From Candidatus Thiodiazotropha endoloripes (GTDB lineage Bacteria; Pseudomonadota; Gammaproteobacteria; Chromatiales; Chromatiaceae): DNA of 64,000 nt. The DNA is taken from the NCBI RefSeq assembly GCF_001708965.1, contig NZ_LVJW01000003.1, positions 1,426,001 through 1,490,000 on the forward strand. The letters are read 5' to 3'. The position numbers and the translations under genes were made by a program. This document shows positions 11,196 through 25,234 of the stretch, one piece after another (the first letter of the stretch is position 1; the number at the start of each line of letters is the position of its first letter). A model generated the notes under the pieces. That model made no database searches. It was not told where the DNA came from and saw nothing but the letters and a program-made list of their open reading frames with translations.

Positions 11196-11873
11196 ATGAA
11201 AACACAGTATATCCTCAACATATTATCCTTACTTCTAGTTTCCTCTTTCTTCAACTTAGCTCAGGCAACAGCTCTATATTACACATTCGAAAGCACTGGA
11301 ACGTTCGATAGTCTAGGAAATGGTAATCCCATAAATGAACCAGTCCAGTATATTTTTCGGGTAGATGGTACTCACAATTCCACTTTATCTAGAGTTAGTG
11401 AGACTGGCTATCAGACTTATAGAATGGACTTTGATGCGACCTTATTAAGTGGTACAGGCTTAGAAATCAGTAAAGACCAGCGTGATACTACTTTCGGTGG
11501 GTATGCTTCTTACAATCCTGGAAGAGGCTATTTTGAGCTTTCTTTAGGTTTATATGCATATGGAGCAAATGCTGTACTTACTCTTCATCCGCATATCTTT
11601 AATTCTTCTATACCAAGTGAAATTTTGACTTCTTACGAGGCCTTTACAGAATGGGCGGTTACTAATCTATATGCATACGATCATCGCCTCAGTATCGAGA
11701 ATCCAGATAGTGTACAAGGTAGAGATGATTACCAAGTTACTGGGCAACCTATTGTTCTTACATCAATTTCTGAAAAATCACCTACTTCTGTACCAGAGCC
11801 TGAAACCTATTTATTGTTTGGACTAGGATTATTGGTATTCAATGTCATTAGAAGGAACAAACAACTAGTGTAG
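11196..11873 (+). CDS. PEP-CTERM sorting-domain protein
   Basis: 225 residues. A signal peptide (1-25, ending AQA) and a classical PEP-CTERM tail: VPEPETYLLFGLGLLVFNV followed by RRNK. Such proteins are exported, recognised by an exosortase at the inner membrane, cut near the PEP motif and linked to extracellular polysaccharide or the envelope. The middle domain is beta-rich and unrecognised. The start is well supported by GGAG 5 nt before the ATG. The stop codon lies inside one arm of a long imperfect inverted repeat. No exosortase gene is in the window. Confidence 0.88.
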   Translation: MKTQYILNILSLLLVSSFFNLAQATALYYTFESTGTFDSLGNGNPINEPVQYIFRVDGTHNSTLSRVSETGYQTYRMDFDATLLSGTGLEISKDQRDTTFGGYASYNPGRGYFELSLGLYAYGANAVLTLHPHIFNSSIPSEILTSYEAFTEWAVTNLYAYDHRLSIENPDSVQGRDDYQVTGQPIVLTSISEKSPTSVPEPETYLLFGLGLLVFNVIRRNKQLV

Positions 11874-14001: not shown

Positions 14002-14676
14002 TCAATCGATTCTTTTCCGGTAACTGAAACCAAGCAGTCCCAATAGACCCGATCCAAACAGCAGGAGTGCAGGGGGAATCGGTACAGGCGCAACGGATTC
14101 GAGTGTAAGAAGTGAGCTAAACACCGAAGAGGCCCCGGTTGAGTCATAGGTCGACTCCAGTGCGCTGATCGGGGAGGTGCCGATTATCCAGTCAACAAAG
14201 GACATTCCACCTGAATAGATCTGAACAAGATTATTTGCAGATCCACCAAGAAAGGATACCCAGTCATCAGATGGATTGGTTGAAGATGTGATATCAAGAC
14301 CACGATTGTACTCGTCTACATAGCCAGGCCCGTTGTAGTAACCGCCATCCACTTCACCGAGTCCACCGCTGATCAGATCCACATAGAAATAGTCGATTGT
14401 ATGGTTAGCCGTTGTGGAATCATCATATGTTGTGATAGTTCCATTATTCGTTGTCCTGATTCCCTGTCTCGTGGTATCGACTAAAAACGAGTAGGAGATT
14501 GTGCTACCGATAGCGAGGCCGGAATCGCTTATTGCTCCTGTGTTATCGGAGAAATTGTTTGCGATGATTTCGCCAGTGAATGTGTAAACTGAAGCTGCGG
14601 TTGAATAACCACTGATAGTGATCAGACCTAAAAAAAACAATCCTAGTGATTTCTTCATGAAATGATTCCTCTCCAA
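14002..14676 (-). CDS. VPLPA-CTERM-type sorting-domain protein
   Basis: 224 residues. A signal peptide (1-27) and a C-terminal tail VPIPPALLLFGSGLLGLLG plus YRKR, which is the VPLPA variant of exosortase sorting signals rather than the PEP form. It is expected to be exported, processed at the membrane and displayed at the surface. The middle domain is Ser/Thr/Gly-rich and unrecognised. It ends in a strong terminator and stands as a single gene. A palindrome 74 bp upstream of the start may be its operator. The start could be a few codons later (MKKSLGLFFLG). Confidence 0.85.
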   Translation of the reverse strand: MERNHFMKKSLGLFFLGLITISGYSTAASVYTFTGEIIANNFSDNTGAISDSGLAIGSTISYSFLVDTTRQGIRTTNNGTITTYDDSTTANHTIDYFYVDLISGGLGEVDGGYYNGPGYVDEYNRGLDITSSTNPSDDWVSFLGGSANNLVQIYSGGMSFVDWIIGTSPISALESTYDSTGASSVFSSLLTLESVAPVPIPPALLLFGSGLLGLLGFSYRKRID

Positions 14677-15814: not shown

Positions 15815-16972
15815 TCATCTGTTCATCTTGTAAACGCCAATCTCTTCATATTCGTTTTTACCCATAGGTTTCAAGACTAGAAAATATCCATCTTTCAGTT
15901 TTTGAAATGAGAGATCTTTGATGATTGAATCATGGGTGAAAATAACCAGGTTGCCTTTCCCTTCGTAACTGCCAATGCGGGTGTCCAGCTCAGCAGCATA
16001 GTTATCAGCCTGGTTTGATGAAAGCTTTTCGTTTGAAGCCAGATAGTCATGTGTTTCAGCCTGACCGAAAGCTGTCAGTGCGGTCTCCTTAGCAAGGCAG
16101 TAAGGACTGGATAGGACCTGCTCTACTCTAACACCCCTGGATTTGAAGAGTTTACCAACTTTACGGGCTTCTGCTTTGCCTTTTACAGATAAGTTGGCTT
16201 TGCTGCTGCATGAGGTATCGTTAAGTAACGCAGTTGTTCTATCCTTATTGTTTTCCAGTGTTGGTGAATTCATGACGACTACCAGACCGCCATCTTCCAG
16301 GTGTGCCCAAACCTGGTACAGCAGTCTGATATAGCTGACCAAACCATCGACTTCCTCATTAGTCAGTATGCCTTTCCAGCCTGGCATGTAGTCTCCTTTT
16401 CCCTCAAGAATATCCTTGGTCAGAGTCTTATTACTAAAGTCATCTGTTTTACCTGGGTTTGTAAGATCGATAGGAACAACGCCAATAAGATTGGTTAAGG
16501 CACCATCCCCAACACCTTCTACACCGTGGCAGATTGAGCAATAGCGCTGATAGAGTTCATAGCCGAGCTCCGGGTCACCGGGTAGATCATGTTTGGTGGT
16601 GCTGAGAAAGCGCAAATAGGCAATCAATGCTGAGATTTGGCTCTGATTGAGCACCTCTTTCCATTTCGGCATATCCTTGCTGATTTTACCGTGTCTTGAT
16701 CTCAGAGACTTGGGAACATTTTTGTCCCCGGTAATGATAACTTGCAGACCGTAATCACTCATCGTTGGTACATAGTCGGTGAGATCCTCCGCTTCGATCT
16801 TCATTTTCTTCGCCAGAGGGCCATATCCTTTACCATCCATACCATGACAGATCATGCAGTGTGATATGTAGAGTTTTCTGCCCTCGAACGCAGGGGATGG
16901 ATTGGCAAGTGCTGCAGGAGCAGCTGCGATCAGAAGGGTGAAAAAAGCCAATACCTGAGTGACAAGTTTCAT
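15815..16972 (-). CDS. dihaem cytochrome c fused to degenerate histidine-phosphatase domain
   Basis: 385 residues: a signal peptide (1-23) and two class I cytochrome c domains with CMICH (39-43) and CSICH (145-149), each followed by a likely Met ligand (DMPKW near 101, DYMPGW near 196). Residues 228-385 resemble the phosphoglycerate-mutase/SixA histidine phosphatase fold: SSPYCLAKETA matches the SSP-x-x-RA-x-x-T-A motif and VIFTHDS the second His motif. However, the catalytic RHG is replaced by MNS (VVVMNSPT). Periplasmic electron carriage is likely; the fused domain is probably non-catalytic. It is the last gene of the cytochrome cluster. Confidence 0.87.
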   Translation of the reverse strand: MKLVTQVLAFFTLLIAAAPAALANPSPAFEGRKLYISHCMICHGMDGKGYGPLAKKMKIEAEDLTDYVPTMSDYGLQVIITGDKNVPKSLRSRHGKISKDMPKWKEVLNQSQISALIAYLRFLSTTKHDLPGDPELGYELYQRYCSICHGVEGVGDGALTNLIGVVPIDLTNPGKTDDFSNKTLTKDILEGKGDYMPGWKGILTNEEVDGLVSYIRLLYQVWAHLEDGGLVVVMNSPTLENNKDRTTALLNDTSCSSKANLSVKGKAEARKVGKLFKSRGVRVEQVLSSPYCLAKETALTAFGQAETHDYLASNEKLSSNQADNYAAELDTRIGSYEGKGNLVIFTHDSIIKDLSFQKLKDGYFLVLKPMGKNEYEEIGVYKMNR

Positions 16973-17043
16973 AGTTTAACCCCAAGAAGATAGCGTGTGA
17001 TTCGAGTCAATACTTTTCACCGAAATTAAGTCAAACCAGATCA

Positions 17044-18855
17044 TCAATAGTCAAAACCATTGTGAACCGTTCCATGGCAATCCAGCCAACAGCTTCCGCT
17101 GTGTACACCTGTATCCAACCAGGTAGGTTCGAGATAATCACCGGTACCTGTGATTGTTCTGATCTGTCCGCCAATGTTGGATGAGGTGAGGAAATTAATC
17201 AGATGGCGATTCGATGCGGATCCATGGGGGTCATGGCAATTGACACACCCCAGATTTTCTGCAACTACGTGTTCCGTATGTGGAAAGGATTGATCTGTAA
17301 ATAAATTACCTGAATCATGACATTTGAAGCAGAGATCGTTTGAGAGCGTTGTGGAACTGGCAGGGTCAATATCATAAGTTTGGGCCATAATCCCTTGATG
17401 GATCGAACCATGCGGACCTGCAGGCCCCAGGCCACCGGCAGCAGGCGAAGTGTTACTGCTGTGGCAGTCACTGCAATAGATCTGTCCGCTAAAAGTGGTG
17501 AGAGGGATGTCGTTACGAAGACTGGGTACTTCGCTATTGTTTGAAGGATCGTTTTCCACGATGGGATGGTATGAAACCAGGGCCGGGTTGCCTGAATTCA
17601 CTTTGTCACGGATATTGTAAACGCCATCAGCCCTAACCATATTGTAACTATCCGCGGTTGAACAGCGCTGGTTATCACATGCACTTTTTCCGGGTACGCC
17701 ATGGCATTTAAAACAGACTTCGTACTCGAAGTCCGCTTCCTGCTTAAAATTACCGTTGGCGTCTATACCAGTGACACCGATCATGCTGCCATTAACAGCA
17801 GGTGCAACTGAGTGACCGCCACCCATCGGGTTCGTCGGATTGAATGAGATCATTGGCGCTTCACTGAAACTGGCGTGGGGGTTATGGCAGTCTTCGCACT
17901 CCACATGCCAGGGCATCATTAGAGGATTTTCGGTGCGTGCAGAGTGTTCGTCATTAAGGGCAATCTCAACCGGGTGGTGATAAATTTTCTGCATTTCGGT
18001 CTGGATATCGGTCTGCGCGACTGTACCATTATGGCAGAGGTAGCAAGTATCCTCCTCTATGCCTTTGATCAGTCTTTCCGGTGTTGCGGCATTGTGGGGT
18101 GTATGGCAGTTCATACAAGCGTTCGCTTGTACGGTCAGTCCTGTCCATTCAGGCTTACGTTCTGACCAGGGATTGGTGCCTTGGGGTGTCGCGGTTGAGG
18201 TTGCATGCGAACTATTGGACCAGATCCAGGCAGTACCTGCTCCTTCAGGCCTTGGCATATGGCAGGTGACACACAGATCACCGTTCGTAGTTGATTTATG
18301 CAGAAATGGGGGATGAATGTTCTCATGGGCATCATGGCATGAGGAGCAGTGAAGCTCATTGTTTCGTAGTGGTAGATCCACATTGTTTGGGTGCACCAGA
18401 TCAGGATCGGTATTCAAAAGAGTAGGATTGTAGATAATGGATACCGGATGATCATCAGATAGATCTGTACCCAACAGAGCACGATCAGTGATATATGTGG
18501 TACTTAAATCGGTGATCGTACCCGGTCTACCAATATTACCCAAGGCGATGGTGCCATCATGACAAGACAGGCAAAGAACTGATGACGAACTCATGGTGCC
18601 TGCATCGGCATGTGTCGTACTACTGAGATAGTCGATATAGACCCCAGTAGAGGATCTGTTCCATAATGGTGAATCCGGTGCAGAGGCATGTGGGGTATGA
18701 CAAAAAATGCAGATTCGATCCTCAGTGTTGCTTTTAACCGTAAACTGACCGCTTGAGGAGAGGTTATGCGCCGTCTCAGCAATGCCTGCCAGAGTGATAC
18801 CGGGAATCGTCGTCATTAGTAGAAATAGAAGATAGATATTTCGCATATCATTCAT
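17044..18855 (-). CDS. dodecahaem c-type cytochrome (doubled CXXCH family)
   Basis: 603 residues with a signal peptide (1-23). Eleven CXXCH sites are visible: CIFCH, CLSCH, CSSCH, CVTCH, CMNCH, CYLCH, CEDCH, CFKCH, CSDCH, CFKCH and CVNCH. A terminal CX3CH (CWLDCH) makes twelve candidate haems. The first third is homologous to the 208-residue tetrahaem protein at 22983 (shared CHTPH, LCLSCHDGT, LGTDLS-DDHP). Many sites have CH-x-PH, giving bis-His pairs. It is likely a periplasmic or surface electron wire. It overlaps the NHL lipoprotein gene by 8 nt, so translation is coupled. Confidence 0.92.
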   Translation of the reverse strand: MNDMRNIYLLFLLMTTIPGITLAGIAETAHNLSSSGQFTVKSNTEDRICIFCHTPHASAPDSPLWNRSSTGVYIDYLSSTTHADAGTMSSSSVLCLSCHDGTIALGNIGRPGTITDLSTTYITDRALLGTDLSDDHPVSIIYNPTLLNTDPDLVHPNNVDLPLRNNELHCSSCHDAHENIHPPFLHKSTTNGDLCVTCHMPRPEGAGTAWIWSNSSHATSTATPQGTNPWSERKPEWTGLTVQANACMNCHTPHNAATPERLIKGIEEDTCYLCHNGTVAQTDIQTEMQKIYHHPVEIALNDEHSARTENPLMMPWHVECEDCHNPHASFSEAPMISFNPTNPMGGGHSVAPAVNGSMIGVTGIDANGNFKQEADFEYEVCFKCHGVPGKSACDNQRCSTADSYNMVRADGVYNIRDKVNSGNPALVSYHPIVENDPSNNSEVPSLRNDIPLTTFSGQIYCSDCHSSNTSPAAGGLGPAGPHGSIHQGIMAQTYDIDPASSTTLSNDLCFKCHDSGNLFTDQSFPHTEHVVAENLGCVNCHDPHGSASNRHLINFLTSSNIGGQIRTITGTGDYLEPTWLDTGVHSGSCWLDCHGTVHNGFDY

Positions 18856-19855
18856 CCACCTTCAGGTATTGAAAAACCTGGATGCGTTGATTATAAGAGT
18901 CGGCGACAAATATTTTGTCATTCCACACGGCTAATCCTGTCGGCATCTGGAACTCTCCATGTTGTCTGCCGGTGTTGCCAAACTCAAGTAAAAACTCACC
19001 GTTTTGGGTAAAAATCTGAACTCTATTCGCCAGTGCATCGGCGATATAGATATGTCCATCAGAGTCAACCGCTATTCCCTTTGACTGGGTCAGGTAACCG
19101 GAAGCGTCTCCTTGCTTGCCAAAGGTTGATATATGTTGCCCATTACTATCGAATATTTGAACCCTGAAGTTCATGGTGTCGTTGACAAAGAGTTTCTTAT
19201 CCGAGGCTGCCAGATGACTTGGGTAGTTAAACTCTAGATCATTTTCACCCCGCTCACCGATTTTGAATAAGTAGTTTCCTACTAGATCATAAGCAAAGAC
19301 CTTGTGAGCCAATGTATCTGCAATGAATAATCGTTGCTGGGATGGATTTAATGACAGGCTGGTAGGGCGCTCTAACCCTTCGATTATGTGTTGAAGCTTA
19401 TTGCTGGAATCCAAAACAAATACTTTATTTAATTTTGAATCAGCAATGAAAAGCCGGTGACTATCAATGGCCACACTGATCGGTGATTCCAGTTGGTTCT
19501 CACCGACACGCTCTATTCTATTGTGGGTCTGCTTGTTGAGATCGTATAAATGCACCACAGCTGCATCCGGATCTGCTATTGCAAGCCTGTTCTCAAAGAC
19601 TGCAAGTGCATAGGGGCGTGCTAGATTTTGATCATCTGCACCAGTAAAGAGGTCAAGTAATTTAGTGAATATAGATTTTTCTATGCCCAGGTCCTGGGCA
19701 TTACTGAAAGCTGTAATAAACTCTATTCTCGCTGGTTCCGGTGCTGAAGGCCAGACAATCCTTTGGCTATCTTTTGCGGGCACGAAGGTAACCGGGCCTG
19801 TAGACGAGCAAGCGGTAAGCAAGAGGAAAATTGTCAGTAAGATAAGTCTACTCAC
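18848..19855 (-). CDS. NHL-repeat beta-propeller lipoprotein 1
   Basis: 335 residues. A lipoprotein signal with lipobox LLTAC (Cys16), then about six NHL repeats recognisable by recurring RLFIADTLAHKVFAYD-like units (IADP, IADS, VADSYNQRIQVF). NHL propellers in the envelope serve as protein-docking scaffolds. It is encoded between the beta-barrel gene (4-nt overlap at 19852-19855) and the dodecahaem cytochrome (8-nt overlap), so it is probably part of the same complex. It is paralogous to the lipoprotein at 24131: both have VWP-x-x-PE-x-x-x-I after the anchor. Confidence 0.9.
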   Translation of the reverse strand: MSRLILLTIFLLLTACSSTGPVTFVPAKDSQRIVWPSAPEPARIEFITAFSNAQDLGIEKSIFTKLLDLFTGADDQNLARPYALAVFENRLAIADPDAAVVHLYDLNKQTHNRIERVGENQLESPISVAIDSHRLFIADSKLNKVFVLDSSNKLQHIIEGLERPTSLSLNPSQQRLFIADTLAHKVFAYDLVGNYLFKIGERGENDLEFNYPSHLAASDKKLFVNDTMNFRVQIFDSNGQHISTFGKQGDASGYLTQSKGIAVDSDGHIYIADALANRVQIFTQNGEFLLEFGNTGRQHGEFQMPTGLAVWNDKIFVADSYNQRIQVFQYLKVDE

Positions 19856-21867
19856 AATATTCTCCGCCTCAACGTGATCATCAGTCGATCCTCGTTGGTC
19901 TCGGTCGTATCACTGTTATCTGAATTGGTCACTTCGCGACGATCATGGTTGTATTTGAAGTCCAGGTCGAGTTTACGGTAACGCCATTGAGCAAGAATCC
20001 CGGCTGTGAAGAATTCATCGTCTTTGCGTCCCCCTGCGATGGCTGAGCCGACATCCTTTCTCTTCCAACCGCTTATGGTCGGTCGGATCGTCAGATTTCT
20101 ACTGGCTTGCCAATTTACGATGAAATCAACGCGATAGAGGTCAGTGTCGAGAAAATCCTGTTCTGTAAATGATTGGGTGGCATTTAAACTCCAATTGATG
20201 CTCTGTCCGCCTCTGCGTGCGGTTGGGGTCCACGAAAACCGCTGATTGAAAGAATATGTGGTCGATTCGAACCCACCGGTCTCGGTATAGCGTCTTTCAG
20301 CACCGATTACCGTGTCAATATTGATCGGTTTGAAATGAAACTCAAGATCGGTGTAAGTATTACGCGTGTTCTGTAGAAAACTTTCGCTTGCTCCAGCGAT
20401 GAGCTTGTCATCCGATTTACTGTCACTATGTGAAAGTCTTACCCAATCGTAATCAATGGTGAAATGGTAATTGGTGAATACTGTGGAGAACTCCTGCGTA
20501 GGCAGTATTTCCGCGTCATAGCTTACCAGTATGGTATCTCCGGAATTTATTCTGCCGCCGGGAACTATCTGCAGCTGAGTCAGATCACCAGACAGATCGA
20601 TAATCGTATAATCTGTATTTTCGTCATATACGGTTATTCCATCACTATCTGTAACAACGATGGTGCTTGTTATGATAAATCGTTGTTCGAGTAGGATTGC
20701 CCCGGTAAAAGGAACTGATTGACTCTCATCGATGACATCGATGGTTCCAAGTGTGGAAACCCTGTCTGTCTCCTGGTATGAAGCGCGGACACCAGCACTG
20801 ATGTGAGCGCCCAAAAGCTTGTTCTTTGTATAGCGTGTCTCCAGACCTACTCGCCACTTATCCTCCTCCAGGTCGTCTGATTCGCGTTTGTTGAGATTGG
20901 CATAGCCCATGCTGTTGAGGTTATTGTAGAGTCTGTGGTGAAGCTCGAATCTGCCGCCGTGCTCTGTATTTTCTATGGTCTGCTCAGTGGATTGATAGTG
21001 ATATGAGGTACGGCTGTGAACATTGTCCAGGTGTTGTATCCTCGCACTCTCACTCACTGTTAGACGTTCATTGGCATTGAAACCTGTACGGTCCGAGTAG
21101 TTAAGGTTCGAATCAAGCTGACTGTTTCGTCCCCATAACAGGTGGTGTGAGATATTTGCTCTGTCCAGTTCGTAATCCTGGTTTCGTGAAATGATACGGT
21201 CATCCAGTTCGTCATGGGTAAGGTGAACACTCAGTTTGCTGCTTCGTCCCTTGAGATTCCAACTTTTTAAAAGCTCGTCGCGTTCGGTAACCGGATTCGT
21301 CAGACTTGAACGAAACTCTTCATCAAGCGTCTTCTCTTCATAGGAGAGACTCATTGGAAAGGCTGAATTTTTCCAGTTAAGGGTTGCTGCAAAAGATTCG
21401 ATATCTGTGTCGAAACGACTACCGAGTGAGCCTGTATTCAGGCTTGTATTCTTTTGTGCGGATAGATCCAGTCCGAAAGGCCCAGGTGTTCCTTGCAGTA
21501 GGCTGGTCTGAAGTAAATAGTTGAACAATTCACCATCGTATTCCTCAACGGTATCGTCGGTTTCAACTTCAGTCCAGGTATAGAGTGGTTCTATATCGAT
21601 GAGAAACCAGGCAATCCTGGGGTCCAACAGATATCCCATCTGGGCAATTCTCAAGCCTGCCTGCCACTCAATCTCTTCAGATTCGAAACCATTCCGTGTT
21701 TTCGTGCCATCAAATTTCACCACTGCATCCAATTCAGTGGGGTAGAGTACGAAACTACTGTTTGATTCGGCAGAGAGCCTCTCACTCCAGAAAAAAGTTA
21801 TCGTGGCAAAAAACCAAATGAATGCCAGAGGCATCATGGATCTTGTCATGACCTCCAGGGGAAGCAT
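19852..21867 (-). CDS. outer-membrane beta-barrel protein, conduit porin candidate
   Basis: 671 residues with a long hydrophobic signal region (1-34) and a mature part made of alternating polar/hydrophobic strands (WNLKGRSSKLSVHLTHDEL, SHSDSKS, LDLDFKYNHDRRE), typical of large outer-membrane barrels. The C-terminus ends RRRIL rather than in Phe/Trp, a small deviation. It lies inside a cytochrome/NHL lipoprotein operon, 5 nt after a trihaem cytochrome gene. This matches porin-cytochrome conduits, in which a barrel holds a multihaem protein across the outer membrane. The barrel call is good; the conduit role is inferred. Confidence 0.8.
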   Translation of the reverse strand: MLPLEVMTRSMMPLAFIWFFATITFFWSERLSAESNSSFVLYPTELDAVVKFDGTKTRNGFESEEIEWQAGLRIAQMGYLLDPRIAWFLIDIEPLYTWTEVETDDTVEEYDGELFNYLLQTSLLQGTPGPFGLDLSAQKNTSLNTGSLGSRFDTDIESFAATLNWKNSAFPMSLSYEEKTLDEEFRSSLTNPVTERDELLKSWNLKGRSSKLSVHLTHDELDDRIISRNQDYELDRANISHHLLWGRNSQLDSNLNYSDRTGFNANERLTVSESARIQHLDNVHSRTSYHYQSTEQTIENTEHGGRFELHHRLYNNLNSMGYANLNKRESDDLEEDKWRVGLETRYTKNKLLGAHISAGVRASYQETDRVSTLGTIDVIDESQSVPFTGAILLEQRFIITSTIVVTDSDGITVYDENTDYTIIDLSGDLTQLQIVPGGRINSGDTILVSYDAEILPTQEFSTVFTNYHFTIDYDWVRLSHSDSKSDDKLIAGASESFLQNTRNTYTDLEFHFKPINIDTVIGAERRYTETGGFESTTYSFNQRFSWTPTARRGGQSINWSLNATQSFTEQDFLDTDLYRVDFIVNWQASRNLTIRPTISGWKRKDVGSAIAGGRKDDEFFTAGILAQWRYRKLDLDFKYNHDRREVTNSDNSDTTETNEDRLMITLRRRIL

Positions 21868-21872
21868 GATGC

Positions 21873-22217
21873 CTACTGCTCTTCGAGAAGGTGACAGCGG
21901 TTACAATTGGCAAATCCATCGTCAAAGGCATCTGTACCATTATGGCAAACAGCACAGGTCTTGCCTTCTTTCATTATGTCCTTATTGATCGTAGTGGTCC
22001 CGGTTTTCATCTCAAATATCGTGTTGTGACAGGCATCACAGCGGTAATTGAGTCGATGGATCCAATGGGGAAAGATTGATGGTGGGAATGATTTCAGTTT
22101 TTCAGGATCACCACCTTCTCGAGTGTATTGAATATCACCAGGGGCTGCGGTCAGCAATGAACCGTATAAGAAAAGAGATATTAATGTTGTTGTTAGAACA
22201 CAAGTGTACTTGCGCAT
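21873..22217 (-). CDS. trihaem cytochrome c7-like protein
   Basis: 114 residues: a signal peptide (1-24) and three CXXCH sites (CDACH, CAVCH, CNRCH) with histidines placed for bis-His ligation (FPHWIHRLNYRC). This is the size and layout of cytochrome c7/c3-type periplasmic shuttles. It sits directly before the barrel gene, which fits a periplasmic feeder to an outer-membrane conduit. Confidence 0.9.
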   Translation of the reverse strand: MRKYTCVLTTTLISLFLYGSLLTAAPGDIQYTREGGDPEKLKSFPPSIFPHWIHRLNYRCDACHNTIFEMKTGTTTINKDIMKEGKTCAVCHNGTDAFDDGFANCNRCHLLEEQ

Positions 22218-22269
22218 ACCTTCACCAATTATTTACCCTGAAAGCACTACAGCGGTAGTGTCTTTTAGA

Positions 22270-22962
22270 TTATTCGTCTTCTTCTTCCTCTTCCTCGTCG
22301 TCACTGTTGATATGGCAGCGGTCACATGCTTTCAGAGAGAATGAGACTTTCTTTTTACCGTGACAGGCACCACAGGAAGCTCCCCGCTTCATCTCTTTCA
22401 TCGTTGCAGGATTTCTTCGATAGGGGTAGAGCGTGGGATTATGACAATTCTTGCACCCAAGCCACTCGGTGTGTGCGGAGTGGGGGAAAAAGGCATCATC
22501 CTCCCGCTCTTCACCTGGAATGATAAAATCCCATTGGAAGGCTCTAGCCCATAATGCGCGAGGGTCTTTTCCGGCACGGGGTCTTATCATTCCCTGTTTC
22601 AAAGCCATGGACCAATCGACATTGTCTTCTTCATCTTTGGGTAGGATTTCCTCCACCCTCTCCCATTCCTTGATCGACTCAATCTCTGGTCTTGGGCCAG
22701 TATCAGCAGGTTGTTGGAAATATCCAGCAGAGAAATTAGCTGATTGACCTGCTTTCAATCCTTTTGTTTGAGCCTCAATCAGTGCGGTTTGTCGTTTCAA
22801 TTCCTGCTCTGCCAACTCTTTGGCTGTCGGTGGCTGAATATCGAAAAATACCTGTTTGGACTCTGTACTGCAGGAAGCAATCAATAACAGAGAGGACACA
22901 ACCAGGATAATGGATATTACCCTGGTTATGCCGAATGTCTCTCTGTTCCCAATGCGAATCAC
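22270..22962 (-). CDS. trihaem cytochrome c lipoprotein
   Basis: 230 residues. The lipobox is LIASC (Cys31). A linker of about 130 residues precedes a C-terminal trihaem domain with CKNCH, CGACH and CDRCH, and the very end is a run of Asp/Glu. The haem domain resembles the trihaem protein encoded next to it (FPHSAHTEWLGC versus FPHWIHRLNYRC), suggesting duplication. Lipid anchoring places it at the inner face of the outer membrane or on the surface. It belongs to the same minus-strand cluster. Confidence 0.9.
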   Translation of the reverse strand: MIRIGNRETFGITRVISIILVVSSLLLIASCSTESKQVFFDIQPPTAKELAEQELKRQTALIEAQTKGLKAGQSANFSAGYFQQPADTGPRPEIESIKEWERVEEILPKDEEDNVDWSMALKQGMIRPRAGKDPRALWARAFQWDFIIPGEEREDDAFFPHSAHTEWLGCKNCHNPTLYPYRRNPATMKEMKRGASCGACHGKKKVSFSLKACDRCHINSDDEEEEEEDE

Positions 22963-22982
22963 GGGATGTATACGCTGTGTGA

Positions 22983-23609
22983 TTACTTAATGTGGCAGGC
23001 CAGACAGAGTGCGCTGCCAGCATTACTCATTCGAAGGAATGGCTCATTGGTATTGTCATGCACAGAGTGGCATGTACCACACTCAACCTGATCCCCGGTT
23101 CCGCCGAACAGTTGCAGACCATTGACCTGTGAATTAACGGCAGCAACAAAATCAGGATCCTGTGTCGCGTTATAGGTCAGTGAGATCGGGTGGTCGTTGC
23201 TCAGATCTGTACCAAGACTGTCACCCAGAAAAAAGATCCCATCGGGTCCAGTGATGCCAGTTGGAAAATTAATCAACTGATCAGCAGCAACGGTTCCATC
23301 ATGACAGCTGAGGCACGCAAGGGAGACGCCCGCCGGTGAACCGGCAATGGTCATATCCAAAGAGGGACTGCTGTACATGGTGTAGGTGGCCACTGTATCT
23401 TGATGATTCCATAATGGGGTCGTACTGTTTGTGGTACTGGCATTATGGGGCGTGTGGCAGTAAGCACAGATTTGTGTATTACCGGCCTGGGTCAAGAGTG
23501 TTGTTTGACTTCGAAGGTCATGTGATGTGTTGGCAATATCTGCAATTGCTGATGTGGCTAGCAGGGCAAGTGAGGCAAAAATACTACCCAGGATTGCTGT
23601 TCTTCTCAT
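22983..23609 (-). CDS. tetrahaem c-type cytochrome (doubled CXXCH family)
   Basis: 208 residues with a signal peptide (1-23, ending AIA). Four CXXCH sites: CAYCH, CLSCH, CGTCH, CLACH. It is clearly homologous to the N-terminal third of the 603-residue cytochrome: both contain CHTPH, TPLWN/SPLWN, CLSCHDGT and GTDLSNDHPIS-like segments. It is first in the cytochrome cluster, only 20 nt from the next gene. The leader carries an inverted repeat that may bind a regulator. Confidence 0.92.
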   Translation of the reverse strand: MRRTAILGSIFASLALLATSAIADIANTSHDLRSQTTLLTQAGNTQICAYCHTPHNASTTNSTTPLWNHQDTVATYTMYSSPSLDMTIAGSPAGVSLACLSCHDGTVAADQLINFPTGITGPDGIFFLGDSLGTDLSNDHPISLTYNATQDPDFVAAVNSQVNGLQLFGGTGDQVECGTCHSVHDNTNEPFLRMSNAGSALCLACHIK

Positions 23610-24130
23610 GCCATTCCTCCTTTCAGGGTATAGGATGATGCACCAGCTCCATTTGAGTGCTTTACGTTATTTCTATTCTTACATTTAGGGGTACTTCTAC
23701 TGCATGTGGCCTTGCTGCCTTGTTGTCCAGCAGTTCTTAGGCTTTCTTAAGGTTCTCTTAAGAAATGGGAAATAAATCCCACATCGATAGTAATATTATG
23801 ACAACGCTATATTAAGGTCAATGGTTTTGAGGAATTTAATTGGTTTTACTTAGCTATTATTTTTAGATTTTATGATTTGAGAGCGATCTTAGAAATATCA
23901 AGTAAAATACTGGGTATTTTTAACTTCGTGGTGATACTTGGGCATTCAAATCTGATCGCTTTATTGAGTGAATTATCAAGCGGTATTATTAAGAATTCAT
24001 TAAGAAATATTAAGTCGGAATTAATTCGTGTCGACACAGCTCGACTAAAACTTGCGTTAGTGCCACTTTGGCACTAACTGTTTTCATCTCTGAAATGAGG
24101 AAGTGAATCGAGTTTTCACGAATATCGCTT
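23610..24130. other. intergenic upstream of the cytochrome operon
   Basis: 521 bp, AT-rich. It contains a perfect 9-bp inverted repeat TTTCTTAAG-GTTCT-CTTAAGAAA (23743-23765), next to TGGGA-AATAAA-TCCCA, about 140-170 bp before the tetrahaem gene start. A hairpin lies at 24056-24078 (listed separately). No gene is supported. Confidence 0.5.
24056..24078 (-). terminator. possible terminator after NHL lipoprotein 2
   Basis: A perfect 10-bp stem GTTAGTGCCA/TGGCACTAAC with a 3-nt loop lies 53 bp after the stop of the 24131 gene. The T-run in the minus direction is short (GTTTTAG), so termination may be partial. Confidence 0.5.
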
Positions 24131-25234
24131 TTATTCTGCCTCTCCTAAATACTCAAACATCTGGATACGCTGATTCAATTGATCAGCTACAAAGATTTTA
24201 TTATTTTTGTCCACATGAGCTCCTGCAGGCAGATAGAAGCCTCCCGGTCCGGTACCTGGCTTACCGACGGTGAGTAGAAGTTGGCCTCCCTGATTGAAGA
24301 TCTGCATATTGTTGAATGCGGCATCGATAGTGTAGATGTGGCCTTCAAGGTCGACACCGATTCCTTTGAGTCGGCTGAATTGTCCACGACCATCACCAAG
24401 GTTGCCGAAACCGTTCAGATATTTTCCCTGTTGATCAAAAATCTGAACGCGAAAATTCATTGTATCGGCAAGATATATCTGACCCTTTTCATCAATGGTA
24501 ATGTTGGTGGGATAGTTGAATTTTCCCTTCTCGGAACCTCGGTCGCCAATGGTAAAATCCACGTCACCATTCTTATTAAAAACAATGACTTGGTGCTTTT
24601 TTGAGTCGACTACATAGAGTTGTTGGGTGGTGTCGTTGAATGTCAGCCCGACGGGTGAAACGAGGACATCACTGCCTCCAAATGCATTAATGAACTGCCC
24701 GTCTTTACTGTACATCACGACCCGATGATCTATGACATCACTGACATATACGTTGCCGGCAGAGTCGGTAGTTACGCCTGTTGGTTTTTTCAGCGTTCCT
24801 GGACCACTGGTGCCCAGGAACTCCATGGTTTCTCTATTGAGGTCGAATACCACAAGTCCGGAAATGCCCGTGTCAGCAACATAAACCCGGCCTTGAGAAT
24901 CGCTGAATACACCATAGGGTTTGACCAGGGCTCGGGTTTCCTCCTCCTCTTTCCCAAGAAACCACTCACGAAGCCCCATTCCTTGGCCACTATCGAAAGA
25001 GTCTGAGGACTTCAAGCTGCCGAGATAGCGTATTTTGGGCTTCTCTGGTGGCGCTGGCCAAACATAATTTCCAGCATCAGCCTGTTGACCTTGGGCAGAT
25101 GGGCCTGGAGAAGCGCAGCCTGAAACCAGAATGATGATCGATACCAATAGAATAAGCTGTAACAGTACTCTCTTTTGATATCTGTGTTGCGAGTGGTAAT
25201 CAGATACAGGTCTGGATCTCACGATTTCCTCCAT
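24131..25234 (-). CDS. NHL-repeat beta-propeller lipoprotein 2
   Basis: 367 residues. A basic N-terminal region is followed by a lipoprotein signal with lipobox LVSGC (Cys40). Six NHL-type blades follow (GRVYVADTGISGLVVFD, GNVYVSDVIDHRVVMY, LYVVDSKKHQVIVF, GQIYLADTMNFRVQIFD, GHIYTIDAAFNNMQIF, KIFVADQLNQRIQMFEY). It is a paralogue of the lipoprotein at 18848 and lies upstream of the tetrahaem gene on the same strand. It is likely an envelope scaffold for the same electron-transfer system, although a hairpin and about 520 bp separate it from the operon. Confidence 0.9.
   Translation of the reverse strand: MEEIVRSRPVSDYHSQHRYQKRVLLQLILLVSIIILVSGCASPGPSAQGQQADAGNYVWPAPPEKPKIRYLGSLKSSDSFDSGQGMGLREWFLGKEEEETRALVKPYGVFSDSQGRVYVADTGISGLVVFDLNRETMEFLGTSGPGTLKKPTGVTTDSAGNVYVSDVIDHRVVMYSKDGQFINAFGGSDVLVSPVGLTFNDTTQQLYVVDSKKHQVIVFNKNGDVDFTIGDRGSEKGKFNYPTNITIDEKGQIYLADTMNFRVQIFDQQGKYLNGFGNLGDGRGQFSRLKGIGVDLEGHIYTIDAAFNNMQIFNQGGQLLLTVGKPGTGPGGFYLPAGAHVDKNNKIFVADQLNQRIQMFEYLGEAE

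Follow-up and report, generated by a model that had tools for sequence, protein, structure and literature searches.

How are filaments of extracellular cytochromes exported and connected to the cell that produces them? To our knowledge, this is an open question. It is raised anew by a locus of eight genes in a 64,000-nucleotide (nt) stretch of DNA from Candidatus Thiodiazotropha (the window, over whose full length all feature positions are counted from 1), part of a 4.46-Mb genome in 12 contigs. Published abstracts describe members of this genus as inhabitants of lucinid clams. All eight genes lie on the minus strand and, in coding order, encode an NHL-repeat lipoprotein (NHL1), a tetrahaem cytochrome (T4), a trihaem lipoprotein (T3L), a trihaem cytochrome (T3), an outer-membrane beta-barrel, a second NHL lipoprotein (NHL2), a 603-amino-acid (aa) multihaem cytochrome (J) and a dihaem cytochrome (D2). 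Each is present where a preliminary description of the window had placed it. Judging from their sequences, these genes probably move electrons across the outer membrane, and we consider it likely that they specify a conduit resembling the undecaheme electron transfer (Uet) pathway, with an outermost cytochrome that belongs to the OmcE nanowire family.

T4 and the N-terminal domain of J belong to the OmcE family

T4 (22983..23609; 208 aa) and the N-terminal domain of J (17044..18855) are homologous to the OmcE filament of Geobacter sulfurreducens (7tfs). Searches with phmmer aligned T4 residues 7-208 of 208 with the filament chain 7tfs_A (E 2.2e-35) and matched 9yuq_N as well (E 1.1e-28), while J residues 11-200 matched 7tfs_A with an E value of 9e-25. 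The preliminary description listed the same set of cytochromes and overlooked this kinship. It also proposed 4, 3, 3, 12 and 2 haem sites (about 24), which requires one amendment: we count four CXXCH motifs in T4, three each in T3L and T3, 11 in J and two in D2, a total of 23, and the twelfth J site is instead a conserved CX3CH. These counts do not reflect chance, since 2000 residue shuffles of each cytochrome yielded almost none (means of 0.001 to 0.06 CXXCH). Among the 161 window open reading frames (ORFs) of at least 70 aa, none that starts outside 15.8-25.3 kb contains the motif.

The N-domain of J (about residues 11-200) carries four haems and its C-domain seven CXXCH motifs together with the CX3CH. 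The residues of the latter, at position 589, are identical in all 12 aligned sequences, window J included, and the motif falls inside the last 40 residues in 78 of 80 wider J homologues (564 relatives were confirmed, of which these are the best 80). As read from these motifs, J joins an OmcE-like domain and an apparent eight-haem domain in a single fused chain.

To compare haem ligands, we aligned 54 T4-like (A-type) sequences, one per locus from 59 found, with 81 J-type sequences. The histidine of each of the four CXXCH motifs is present in every sequence. Four further histidines, which we infer to be the distal haem ligands, are kept in 52, 53, 54 and 54 of the 54 A-type proteins and in 80, 80, 81 and 81 of the 81 J-type proteins; both sets of four are shared with OmcE. 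In a tree of these domains, all 81 J N-domains group in a single clade that excludes every A-type protein (support 1.0; 0.82 once 11 Geobacter-class proteins are added).

The T4 group departs from OmcE near the first haem. Here, 46 of 54 A-type proteins carry the histidine of a WNH motif (T4 residue 69), compared with 5 of 81 J proteins; window J has arginine at this position, as do both PDB relatives (WNR). This difference lends some weight to a conduit without nanowires, in which J would span the barrel and T4 would be a monomeric surface or periplasmic carrier that never polymerizes, and OmcE homology is indeed no proof of filaments. Nevertheless, T4 is homologous to OmcE over its full length and retains the ligand histidines, and we regard a purely monomeric T4 as rather unlikely.

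Were T4 to polymerize, J would be a candidate partner for the end of the filament. In the excerpts of PMC12203936 available to us, haem 2 of OmcE is ligated by a histidine from the neighboring subunit, so the OmcE-like domain of J could in principle cap the end of a T4 stack. The four candidate histidines kept in the T4 and J families might each be the one that bridges subunits.

The gene set recurs across phyla

The 80 J loci defined above span about a dozen phylum-level names, as judged by record titles. These include Proteobacteria (several classes), Bacteroidetes, Planctomycetes, Verrucomicrobia, Nitrospirae, Calditrichota, Ignavibacteria, KSB1, Zixibacteria, Hydrogenedentes, Nitrospinota, BRC1 and Myxococcales, among others; three of the loci (L029-L031) come from records that also entered the genus comparison below. 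A barrel is encoded at 65 of the 80, many of which lie on short contigs. For fifty loci the sequence reaches 6 kb or more upstream of J. The stretches fetched for these all contain a barrel and an NHL gene, and 46 of the 50 also contain a separate OmcE-like gene. Restricting the count to within 6 kb of J gives 49, 50 and 37, respectively, and restricting it to J's strand gives 49, 49 and 43. Where 6 kb is available on both sides (39 loci), the barrel and NHL genes are present in all 39 and the OmcE-like gene in 36. The presence of a separate OmcE-like gene in the J stretch of 46 of 50 loci further disfavors the conduit without nanowires.

Gene order is also preserved in part. Several proteobacterial loci read NHL, T4, trihaem, trihaem, barrel, NHL, J, as in the window; in many others a gene with five CXXCH motifs precedes the barrel, and in several Bacteroidetes and Calditrichota loci NHL and J come first. 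Across the 50 loci, a trihaem gene is found in nine and a five-CXXCH gene in 28. Locus L106, from Aestuariivivens sediminis S-DT1-15, which is on record as a strain, has NHL, J, OmcE-like and barrel genes. Mantel correlations of J, barrel and A-type distances over 51 loci, calculated with no species-tree control, were 0.65, 0.59 and 0.43. They point weakly to co-inheritance, and shared descent alone could give such values. For the J N-domain, delimited at residue 230 with start sites unconfirmed, the values were 0.25-0.37; we report these without interpretation. At two betaproteobacterial loci, sensor kinase genes lie upstream of the module (L038 468-3434; L050 1421-3097), and in L038 a sigma-54 activator gene adjoins it.

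At closer range, we searched 56 genomes, the window's own included, for the barrel. It was detected in 13: its own genome, clearly in 11 of 21 other genomes of the genus, and weakly (22% identity) in genome G006; 34 genomes from beyond the genus, covered by the same search, gave no match. Among the 12 genus-level regions, nine preserve the full eight-gene order of the window, two agree as far as they extend before a contig end, and one, that of G006, is divergent. Together with the 80-locus set, these regions bear out the expectation that the barrel and cytochromes would be conserved together in relatives. The G006 locus (L027 5306-16986) contains T4, NHL, barrel, NHL and J, with no match to T3, T3L or D2; after it come more multihaem genes and one for a cytochrome b561-type protein. 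By its gene content, the region may perhaps encode a complete quinone-to-surface chain. The same genome has eight matches to T4, its own J included.

At the class level, J was detected (E <= 1e-60) in 13 of 369 genomes drawn, its own among them, and its distribution is patchy. A Ca. T. taylori record encodes a J that is 95% identical to that of the window, and the J of tubeworm endosymbionts (Escarpia, Lamellibrachia) is 64% identical.

The barrel belongs to a family without a Pfam assignment

The predicted outer-membrane barrel (19852..21867; 671 aa) is supported by a partial AlphaFold model and by a family profile. AlphaFold placed strands, with block values of the predicted local distance difference test (pLDDT) of 61-84, at residues 511-650 only. 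No Pfam family matches the window barrel at E <= 0.1, the MtrB/PioB family PF11854 included, and by Pfam it is therefore no MtrB/PioB protein. Similarly, PF11854 matches none of 36 diverse members of the barrel family (E <= 0.01), a profile of these 36 finds no PDB sequence at E <= 1, and one member has a weak Pfam match to DUF6695 (E 0.0014). The profile used to count barrels was trained iteratively on the 80 J loci (55 on the first pass, 65 finally), and as a control it recovers from the window its single barrel only. Elsewhere in the window's genome, L113 (G000:C6:863439-863801) has a weak MtrB_PioB match that exceeds the cut-off only with its in-frame neighbors.

One segment of the barrel, residues 391-453 (20509..20697), resembles part of the phage tail-tube family model NF052337 (E 6e-07, below the cut-off of the model). 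The segment is conserved, and 15 of the 36 family members match the same model. We interpret the segment as a probable sandwich-like insert and set aside a phage origin.

A barrel that falls outside MtrB/PioB, carries a conserved insert-like segment and is accompanied by an NHL gene at all 50 loci could instead be mainly an usher-like machine for the export and assembly of T4; the NHL proteins would then help in assembly, and electrons would take another route. This would leave unexplained why J, with its 12 haem sites, accompanies the barrel, and why trihaem or five-CXXCH genes occur at the frequencies given above. The usher matches found with Foldseek are weak and derive from a poor model. 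We consider such an export machine improbable.

The halves of J are separate genes in relatives of Geobacter

The Desulfuromonadales metagenome-assembled genome (MAG) L036 presumably belongs to the class of Geobacter. The J profile matches 145 of 195 genomes of this class at E <= 1e-3, many through one half only, and we examined 11 regions chosen for half or full matches. Two hold the full module with a fused J. In six, an NHL gene is followed by a four-haem OmcE-like gene and an adjacent gene with seven CXXCH motifs and a CX3CH. Elsewhere, then, neighboring genes encode each half of J on its own, from which we argue that the halves touch. The remaining three regions have OmcE-like genes without J (7tfs_A matches L148 at 9.7e-44 and L152 at 1.9e-35). 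The barrel profile finds no member in the nine regions that lack a fused J. In one Geobacter-class genome, an ORF of 2706 aa with 57 CXXCH motifs adjoins an OmcE-like gene (L150 9059-17179).

Trihaem proteins, NHL lipoproteins and D2

Two small proteins share a trihaem c7 domain. T3 (21873..22217; 114 aa; TIGR04257, E 2.6e-18) has an N-terminus that looks by eye like a signal peptide and is probably periplasmic. T3L (22270..22962; 230 aa) places its c7 domain at the C-terminus after a long linker (TIGR04257, E 6.1e-18; PF14522, E 8e-13), and is the only one of the five cytochromes in which we could read a lipobox by eye (...IASC). NHL1 (24131..25234; 367 aa; PF01436, E 5.9e-28; lipobox ...LVSGC) and NHL2 (18848..19855; 335 aa; PF01436, E 5.5e-26; ...LLTAC) contain NHL repeats of the beta-propeller type and are paralogues, as had been proposed (E 2.8e-62). 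As a rule, the lipobox cysteine of outer-membrane lipoproteins is followed by alanine or serine. By eye, one of these two residues follows the cysteine in NHL1, NHL2 and T3L, which suggests that all three are outer-membrane lipoproteins.

The proposed overlaps between genes are also present: 4 nt between barrel and NHL2 (19852-19855) and 8 nt between NHL2 and J (18848-18855). Upstream of T4 lies a 521-nt gap (23610-24130), and an AGGAGG site directly precedes the gene; given these two features, T4 may start its own transcript. A promoter scan gave no signal (15 sites versus 18.4 expected), and a scan for terminator-like sites found 16 versus 8.0 expected, which we give without interpretation. 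Beyond the locus, two ORFs (11196-11873 and 14002-14676) end in tails that we take to be of the PEP-CTERM type.

D2 (15815..16972; 385 aa) is a cbb3-type cytochrome (PF13442, E 1.8e-21) with the two haem sites originally assigned to it, and it contains in addition a C-terminal SixA-like (phosphohistidine phosphatase-like) domain (NF004841, E 1.4e-15, below cut-off). A SixA domain is expected to begin with an RHG motif. Inspection by eye finds no RHG at its start in any of 11 aligned sequences, window D2 included, and the domain is a possible pseudo-phosphatase. Clear D2 homologues (E <= 1e-136) occur at 6 of the 80 J loci, all from Thiodiazotropha or from clam or tubeworm symbionts, and weaker matches, each with three CXXCH motifs, at L038 and L070. 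Since a longer gap separates D2 in several genus regions and its clear homologues are confined to these six symbiont loci, we treat it as accessory.

The restriction of D2 to this symbiont group, the animal-symbiont source of the window and the patchy occurrence of the barrel in the genus (11 clear homologues among 21 other genomes) would all fit a redox system that acts on a soluble or host-related substrate in symbiosis rather than in extracellular electron transfer. We find this very improbable, as the core module extends to a wide range of other bacteria, represented mainly by environmental MAGs, under about a dozen phylum-level names.

Comparison with known electron conduits

The preliminary description had raised the possibility of a distinct type of conduit. 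The parts list argues otherwise, as it fits the published Uet pathway with two parts missing. In the portions of PMC10734462 available to us, Uet clusters of Tenderiales and Gallionella comprise tetraheme, triheme, barrel, NHL and undecaheme parts, together with a peptidylprolyl isomerase and a third triheme protein; Ca. Tenderia electrophaga is likewise described as having triheme and undecaheme genes (PMC5371394, in part). Compared as a list of parts rather than with Tenderia sequence, our locus matches in its tetraheme, triheme and barrel components, two NHL proteins and an 11-12-haem cytochrome. T4, at 208 aa with four CXXCH motifs, corresponds to UetA; the barrel, by its partial model and family conservation, and the two NHL proteins correspond to UetC and UetH/I, with sequence likeness to UetC itself outside the comparison; and J is likened to UetJ by haem count only (11 CXXCH and one CX3CH). 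The Uet descriptions in the portions of PMC10734462 examined draw no link from UetA or UetJ to OmcE. More generally, the OmcE link, the J fusion and the wide conservation do not appear in those parts of the Uet and undecaheme literature that we examined, and we claim no priority for them.

MtrAB, MtoAB and PioAB also pair a barrel with a multihaem wire. Unlike these, our barrel lacks PF11854, and J scores 71.5 bits against the DmsE-type model TIGR03508, whose cut-off is 192.2. We assume that the occ genes and the undecaheme gene of Ca. Dechloromonas occultata form one cluster. As outlined in the available parts of PMC13264449 and PMC8258643, the undecaheme/occ cluster is similarly undecaheme-centered and multihaem, a likeness of description rather than of gene lists. 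PCC3 combines a predicted outer-membrane porin with multihaem proteins, among them a 21-27-haem periplasmic cytochrome (PMC10734462, PMC5566968, both in part), whereas the largest cytochrome at our locus, J, has 12 haem sites and no 21-27-haem protein is encoded there. Compared with OmcE, T4 not only carries WNH in place of WNR but is encoded beside a barrel and J, and any filament that it forms is putative. Our literature searches returned no paper joining lucinid, symbiont and extracellular electron transfer. In searches on OmcE, NHL and cytochrome nanowires, the matches listed included no electron-transfer paper with NHL and none with both OmcE and the NHL repeat.

A proposed path for electrons, and its weak points

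In the Uet-like conduit that we favor, a NapC/NirT-type cytochrome, its gene lying outside the locus, would connect the inner-membrane quinone pool to the proteins encoded here. Four PF03264 matches above cut-off are present in the genome of the window, all away from the locus. T3 in the periplasm and the lipid-tethered T3L would then relay electrons between the quinone side and J. The step from a quinol dehydrogenase to T3 and T3L is supported by L036, where a NapC/NirT gene (E 1.7e-75) lies about 1.3 kb upstream of the NHL gene on the same strand. J, with its 12 haem sites, would be held in the barrel and exchange electrons with T4 at the cell surface, and the NHL lipoproteins may serve as assembly or scaffold factors. 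Flow could run either way, as disposal of electrons in anoxic sediment or as uptake from minerals or neighbors.

Several observations weigh against this conduit. The structure prediction suggested with the preliminary description delivered the barrel strands at residues 511-650 and failed for J: on shallow 12-sequence alignments, mean pLDDT was 42 for the barrel and 26 for J, values too low for a model of a barrel/J complex. Foldseek searches with the poor barrel model returned porins of a generic kind and ushers, together with a weak match to MtrB (E 1.9e-3, template modeling score 0.21). The 65 barrel loci are not an independent count because the profile was built from the same loci, and the 80 loci come mostly from MAGs, in which binning errors are possible. 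No OmcE-like gene is found in 3 of the 39 two-sided loci (L051, L078 and L088), and 13 of 50 loci have none within 6 kb of J. The family barrel is missing from all six split-J regions (two of them cut by contig ends), and therefore J need not always pair with a barrel. Finally, Uet has three trihaem proteins (UetDEG) and this locus two, and no Pfam match to the peptidylprolyl isomerase UetB was detected in ten locus and flanking proteins, the part of the genome searched. Because the isomerase and the third trihaem protein were not found, we call the locus Uet-like rather than a tested member of that pathway.

A further step is possible, and we take it tentatively. With its OmcE-like unit and its eight-haem domain in one fused protein, J could act as a wired base on which T4 subunits stack, perhaps the base of a nanowire. 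In a reading that we hold to be less likely than not, the module would then be the missing outer-membrane socket of OmcE-type nanowires, with J locked in a dedicated barrel that has no Pfam family, nucleating and feeding a T4 filament, and with the NHL proteins aiding export or assembly. Such a base would be old and common to about a dozen phyla, and clam and tubeworm symbionts would possess nanowires.

Implications

The recurrent combination of an OmcE-like gene, a fused OmcE-like/multihaem J and a barrel supplies concrete candidates for the connector between cytochrome filaments and the cell, and makes the question of their attachment testable. Similar gene sets in many bacteria may reveal how nanowires plug into cells. 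For chemosynthetic animal symbionts, our analysis suggests that they could trade electrons with solids or neighbors in the sediment.

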